Of a stretch of 64,000 nucleotides of DNA, positions 29,640-29,820 are shown in pieces. The notes under the pieces were generated by a model that was not told where the DNA came from, made no database searches, and worked only from the letters and a program-made list of their open reading frames with translations. Position 1 is the stretch's first letter. Each line of letters opens with the position of its first letter. Position numbers and translations under genes: made by a program. The stretch is taken from contig NZ_SJKB01000012.1 of the NCBI RefSeq assembly GCF_004331465.1, positions 124,001 through 188,000 on the forward strand. The letters run 5' to 3'. Source of the stretch: Kribbella pittospori. Lineage in GTDB: Bacteria > Actinomycetota > Actinomycetes > Propionibacteriales > Kribbellaceae.

Positions 29640-29820
29640 GATTGGCGCTTCCGGGACATCTTCGTTACTGTCTCGTGATATTGGCCGGGATCGGGGAAGG
29701 TTCCGGGCAGCGCGCCCCTCGGCGATGACCGTGGTCCCCGGGCCCTGAATTACCCGGAGTTTGCGGCCTTACGCCAGCGCTGTCCGACCCCGTGCCCGGG
29801 TGGCCCTACCTGGGAGCGTT
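29640..29820 (+). ncRNA. Candidate c-di-AMP (ydaO-type) riboswitch upstream of rpfB
   Basis: The 220-bp leader before rpfB has no ORF but holds, in order, pieces like the ydaO consensus: GATCGGGGAA at 29689-29698, CCTGAATTACC at 29744-29754, and GTCCGACCCCG at 29782-29792. GC-rich complementary stretches lie between them. Actinobacterial rpf genes are a known home of c-di-AMP riboswitches. The match is by eye; the GACAGCTAACC end piece is not clear, so this may be a divergent member or a different structured leader. Confidence 0.45.

Follow-up and report, generated by a model that had tools for sequence, protein, structure and literature searches.

A conserved leader RNA before rpfB in Kribbella and other Actinomycetes, a probable translational switch

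The rpfB gene of Kribbella pittospori lies in a window of 64,000 nucleotides, the whole stretch of DNA that we have analysed. tatD and a nitroreductase-family gene are found upstream of rpfB, the latter at 28981-29601 between tatD and rpfB, while ksgA is found downstream. The rpfB product contains three DUF348 stretches, a G5 domain and a transglycosylase-like domain (Pfam): It is of the RpfB type, as the original prediction had stated for the gene downstream. The main features are as follows:

29642..29671, + strand: probable promoter, with a -35 box TTGGCG (29642-29647), an 18-nt spacer and a -10 box TACTGT (29666-29671)
29664..29679, - strand: MtrA-like direct repeat, GTNAY-N6-GTNAY read on the + strand, with an 11-base period, overlapping the -10 box
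29677..29821, + strand: leader RNA of rpfB, kept in 38/38 genus genomes, its 5' end placed by us about 6 nt past the -10 box
29812..29816, + strand: Shine-Dalgarno sequence GGGAG
29822..30949, + strand: rpfB, with a GTG start at 29822
30962..31849, + strand: ksgA (RrnaAD, rRNA adenine dimethylase), from Pfam
32033..32965, + strand: probable ispE

The last of these genes is presumably ispE, a name which we take from gene order and sequence. A second methionyl-tRNA-synthetase-like frame is found at 33505-35094 on the - strand, 6 kb from a metG-like gene at 25773-27527 (both names were given by eye).

The ORF caller placed the start of rpfB at 29792. This start is unlikely, because the frame read from it is interrupted by TAG in 35 of the 38 genus genomes; no such interruption is found from 29822. 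The promoter has been recognized by eye in the alignment of these 38 genomes, where it has the form TTGGCR-18-TAYNRT, and a strict promoter consensus scan found no promoter. From its position, the RNA would probably start at about 29677. The leader element begins about 8 nt past this probable transcription start and stops at the ribosome-binding site of rpfB.

The leader is present in all 38 Kribbella genomes, with 77-99% identity to the window in the other 37. The truly conserved blocks within the genus are GGCCGGGATCGGGG, found in 38/38 genomes, and CCCCGTGCCCGGG, found in 35/38. In order to look for the leader outside the genus, a covariance model was built from the 38 leaders and 293 genomes of the order were searched with it, rpfB being located by protein search. 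We use the family labels of the search tool (f followed by a number), of which f3 includes Nocardioides pinisoli and f4 Actinopolymorpha pittospori; f22 appears to be Streptomyces-like and f7 mycobacteria-like. Five matches with E<0.01 are found in f4 (G050, G045, G048, G043 and G056), all of them no more than about 100 nt before rpfB. Four more matches at this level, second places in the Kribbella genomes G016, G025 and G031 and a fragment in G290, speak against the specificity of the model.

A direct comparison of rpfB upstream regions extends this distribution. Within the order they were taken from 60 of 79 non-genus genomes. The class sample has 118 genomes, 64 of them with RpfB at E<=1e-30 and 56 of these outside the order; the latter gave 57 upstreams (25 + 32), so that the combined set has 117. 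A motif formed by the two P1 blocks, when one mismatch is allowed over both blocks together, is present in 31 of the 117, compared with 1 of 4680 shuffles. By families, it is found in f4 (8/8), f3 (12/32), f23 (7/7), f31 (1/1), f24 (1/2), f13 (1/1) and f11b (1/1), and in f2 it is absent from all 20 upstreams. The label f11b denotes the second copy of rpfB in G299, whose genome has a contamination of 6%. When up to three mismatches are allowed the motif is found in 54/117 upstreams and 52/2340 shuffles; we prefer the count with at most one mismatch, which is stricter. Even with three mismatches the motif is absent from f22 (0/6), f7 (0/5), f12 (0/4), f28 (0/4) and f34 (0/3). The element is therefore found upstream of rpfB in Kribbella, Nocardioides and Actinopolymorpha and, when one mismatch is tolerated, in four or more additional families of the class.

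We have also scanned 84,980 species with a two-block pattern, using one spacing common outside Kribbella. The 32 matches comprise 28 Nocardioides, one Kribbella, one Actinopolymorpha, one Streptomyces and one Planctomycetota, and in 29 of them an RpfB match begins 18-222 nt downstream. One Nocardioides locus (L179) ends before RpfB could appear, and the Streptomyces and Planctomycetota matches, which have no RpfB, are taken as chance. Being deliberately stringent, the pattern gives a measure of specificity and says nothing about how abundant the element is. As a separate observation, in one f3 locus (L131 of G057) the two blocks are almost adjacent, GGCCGGGCTCGGGTCCCGGAG, which looks like a deletion of the entire P2 region.

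The two conserved blocks, GGCCGGGATCGGGG and CCCCGTGCCCGGG, can pair with each other as a long-range closing helix, P1, which encloses a covarying helix, P2:

29685..29689, + strand: P1a 5' strand CCGGG, pairs with 29795-29799
29692..29696, + strand: P1b 5' strand CGGGG, pairs with 29788-29792
29705..29713, + strand: P2 5' strand, pairs with 29777-29785, strongest covariation
29777..29785, + strand: P2 3' strand
29788..29799, + strand: P1 3' strand, made of P1b CCCCG (29788-29792), TG and P1a CCCGG (29795-29799)

Covariation was measured in an alignment of 43 leaders made without regard to structure (16 of the 38 from the genus, eight from f4 and 19 from f3, picked for the 5' block). For the 13 pairs of P1a and P2, 89.4% of the cells are paired, compared with 16-47% in slid registers. 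Changes on both sides are seen in 8 of the 13 pairs (3.8 in shuffles), and covariation is 0.212 against 0.121 in shuffles (0 of 500 shuffles), controls which ignore the kinship of the leaders. Most of this signal comes from P2, because four of the five P1a pairs are invariant in the alignment.

A swap of P2 strands points in the same direction. In 95 of 100 leaders the strand pairs more strongly with its own partner than it does, on average, with partners taken from other families (-20.7 vs -16.2 kcal/mol). Of these 100 leaders, 76 come from two families, 41 from f3 and 35 closely related ones from f1; a control segment shows such a preference in 54/95 (-15.7 vs -14.3 kcal/mol). The signal is weaker in f1 and f4, where a median of 20% and 26% of the swaps are as good. 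It is also weaker in Nocardioides-type leaders taken alone: The own partner gives -19.8 and the swapped ones -16.9 kcal/mol, with a median rank of 0.21, and it beats 90% of the swaps in only 12 of the 43 leaders used (four of the 47 were off pattern). When 40 Nocardioides-type leaders are folded by RNAalifold with no constraint, P1a and P1b are obtained and nothing else; P2 is not returned.

Within the genus alone, the P1a pairs of P1 show no variation. Compensated changes are seen by eye in other genomes: CCGGA/TCCGG in G050, CGGA/TCCG in G093 and G047, CAGG/CCTG in G049 and CGGC/GCCG in G343. Against P1, G389 and G312 have CCGGA with CCCGG, which is unpaired. The P1 candidates of f9 and f14 are one base short on each side, for example GCCGGGGTGGGG and CCCCTGCCCGG, with two mismatches each. 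The last P1b pair is formed in 58 of the 66 leaders outside the genus set and unpaired in eight, while the shuffles give 77%, with none of 5000 as high. Thermodynamic stability failed as evidence: The leader of the window is not unusual when compared with shuffles (z 0.48). Two other pairings have been discarded. One is a pseudoknot formed by the loop of hairpin A (see below) with CCCC, which would occupy the P1b bases and is hence indistinguishable from P1b. A GNAC/GUGC hairpin at the Nocardioides start codon seemed plausible at first, and we make no claim for it because leaders with an ATG start keep its 5' part without a partner, as judged by eye.

Other pairings compete with P1 for the same bases:

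29685..29706, + strand: alternative 5' hairpin A, CCGGGATC-GGGGAA-GGTTCCGG, which excludes P1a (RNAalifold, 38 genus leaders)
29795..29814, + strand: alternative hairpin CCCGGGUG/UACCUGGG, which takes part of the Shine-Dalgarno sequence and excludes P1a

For the 38 Kribbella leaders, RNAalifold returns hairpin A, P2 and the Shine-Dalgarno hairpin in place of P1. All eight pairs of the Shine-Dalgarno hairpin are possible in 37 of these 38 leaders, and leaders from outside the genus do not show this hairpin as such. Folding favours P1 over it, with a mean probability of 0.84 vs 0.15 and an energy gap of -3.5 kcal/mol (range -8.4 to +1.0). For the Shine-Dalgarno sequence itself the mean unpaired value is 0.19, so that it is largely paired. 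These features suggest how the leader might work. P1 would join the first bases of the transcript to the strand just before the Shine-Dalgarno sequence, enclosing P2 and a variable middle, and its exchange with pairings that occupy the ribosome-binding site would set the translation of rpfB. In Kribbella, CCCGG at 29795-29799 could form pairs with the RNA's 5' end or, alternatively, with the Shine-Dalgarno region. A simple consensus scan found no intrinsic terminator at 29590-29850. Since CCCGG has two possible partners and the Shine-Dalgarno sequence is mostly paired, a translational switch, of either polarity, is our best guess. The signal might be a small molecule, a protein or the state of translation.

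Rfam 15 has no family which corresponds to this RNA. With all its families, the only match at 29500-29950 with E<=10 is osmY at E 3.6, which is irrelevant. Eight relative loci from other families gave no match at E<=1, and eight further ones only H19_2 at E<=0.5 (E 0.084, under its gathering score), also irrelevant. Apart from the M. tuberculosis switch discussed below, the element is not described in the titles and abstract openings among the matches listed, mostly open literature. Computationally, the leader is conserved, its P1 and P2 helices pair with covariation and its association with rpfB is tight: Covarying helices and a constant position before one gene are general traits of cis-regulatory leader RNAs. 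We infer that the leader controls the expression of rpfB, most likely at translation. In our opinion there is a good likelihood that the RNA of 29677-29821 forms the 5' leader of an rpfB-ksgA-ispE operon, belongs to a family absent from Rfam 15 and acts as a translational switch.

The original prediction was a structured leader before rpfB, identified as a divergent ydaO-type c-di-AMP riboswitch (RF00379) without its 3' end. A conserved, probably structured RNA does lie there, while its identification as ydaO has been rejected. The three strings on which it was based are present and in the order given, GATCGGGGAA at 29689-29698, CCTGAATTACC at 29744-29754 and GTCCGACCCCG at 29782-29792, and GATCGGGGAA, which loosely resembles ydaO, occurs twice in the 64-kb window (0.23 expected). 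Taken as three ydaO pieces they do not hold, as GATCGGGGAA is kept in 38/38 genus genomes, CCTGAATTACC in 2/38 and GTCCGACCCCG in 3/38. RF00379 has no match at its gathering score (38 bits) across the whole window and none up to E<=10 at 29500-29950: The covariance score is below threshold. CAGCTAAC, the conserved 3' block in the consensus of the RF00379 model, is found in 0/38 genus leaders. As a positive control, a genome-wide search at E<=10, in which 150 of 198 first-look candidates were scored, gave a sole match, of 60 bits, at another locus, C69. This is a standard RF00379 c-di-AMP riboswitch (L001:1501-1669, that is G000:C69:266181-266349), before a gene which by eye looks of the NlpC/P60 type. 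The gene context is in favour of ydaO, since riboswitches of this type are found before rpfA and other actinobacterial cell-wall genes, as mentioned in sections of PMC9960051 and PMC6009663; those of PMC9960051 include nlpC and suggest translational control of C. glutamicum nlpC by such a riboswitch. A cell-wall gene with RpfB-type domains is indeed found downstream here, a trait which is not specific. Both RNAs lead actinobacterial cell-wall hydrolase genes, but the rpfB leader has another closing helix and neither a covariance-model match nor CAGCTAAC. With a standard copy elsewhere in the same genome, a divergent ydaO riboswitch is highly improbable. c-di-AMP may be bound by a fold unrelated to ydaO.

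A different possibility is that conservation is at the level of DNA, due to the promoter and an MtrA site, and that the RNA is inert. Both adjoin the leader and are more widely distributed. The form of the MtrA motif was taken from part of PMC6265350, where rpfB is reported as an MtrA target in M. tuberculosis. The repeat is found in 27/117 rpfB upstreams and 16/2340 shuffles, and families that lack the leader RNA have it as well: It is present in 5/5 upstreams of f7 and 5/20 of f2, where the leader motif is absent when one mismatch is allowed (0/5 and 0/20). The repeat thus occurs where there is no leader; besides, some 100 nt separate the two conserved blocks and the strands that lie between these covary, so this explanation is quite unlikely. 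We rate slightly lower, as very unlikely, a translated upstream ORF or attenuator peptide. In many genus members a short reading frame (MLAGIG...) begins near the 5' end, and in 73 of 103 sequences the frame of the 5' block reaches the 3' block with no stop, a count which includes the chance matches L166 and L191 and is weakened by the frequency of long open frames in such GC-rich DNA. On the other hand, the window has ATA where many relatives have ATG, and L117 and L124 have one-base insertions in the 5' block. Within f1, f3 and f4 the distances between blocks fall in all three frames, which leaves them without a shared frame: Conservation of a peptide is hence unlikely, and we have rejected a conserved upstream ORF in spite of the 73/103 open frames. 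A much stronger competitor is a leader sensed by a protein or coupled to translation (a ribosome-maturation or cell-wall factor, or feedback by KsgA), not a small-molecule riboswitch. ksgA lies after rpfB, the middle of the leader is variable and short conserved blocks remain only at P1 and before the Shine-Dalgarno sequence. Association with one gene, however, tells nothing of the ligand, and we regard this alternative as a real possibility, short of an even chance.

A translational leader of rpfB should be compared with the switch in the 5'-UTR of M. tuberculosis rpfB (Schwenk et al. 2018), which PMC6009663 describes as an attenuator of transcription that carries an intrinsic terminator and occurs only in some of the pathogenic mycobacteria. 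Both are leader RNAs of rpfB followed by ksgA and ispE; here rpfB and ksgA are identified by Pfam, ispE by position only. They differ in that the Kribbella leader has no terminator-like site at 29590-29850, a distinction made from the published description. The motif is found in none of the five rpfB upstreams read from f7, the family we suppose to be mycobacterial. Two f7 upstreams, L222 and L223, retain the promoter/MtrA block and have a different GC-rich inverted repeat with a T-rich stretch after it, which by eye might be a terminator-type leader.

In summary, the rpfB leader looks like a folded RNA element so far undescribed, with the same gene downstream across several actinobacterial families. 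It is similar to the orphan riboswitch candidates found by comparative genomics in its short conserved blocks, its covarying helices, its single downstream gene and its presence in several families of a class; what sets it apart is that it has no Rfam 15 match and no description among the literature matches listed. We tentatively suggest, as one possible reading, an undescribed riboswitch of the class Actinomycetes which would sense a small molecule of cell-wall state or dormancy and set the translation of rpfB and, through it, of ksgA and ispE. It would be ancestral, and lost or replaced in the streptomycete-like and mycobacteria-like families. RpfB is a resuscitation-promoting factor, which helps dormant actinobacteria to resume growth. 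An RNA element before its gene in several families would offer a testable handle on the signal that permits resuscitation. RNA control of rpfB would then be wider than some pathogenic mycobacteria, with at least two different-looking solutions.
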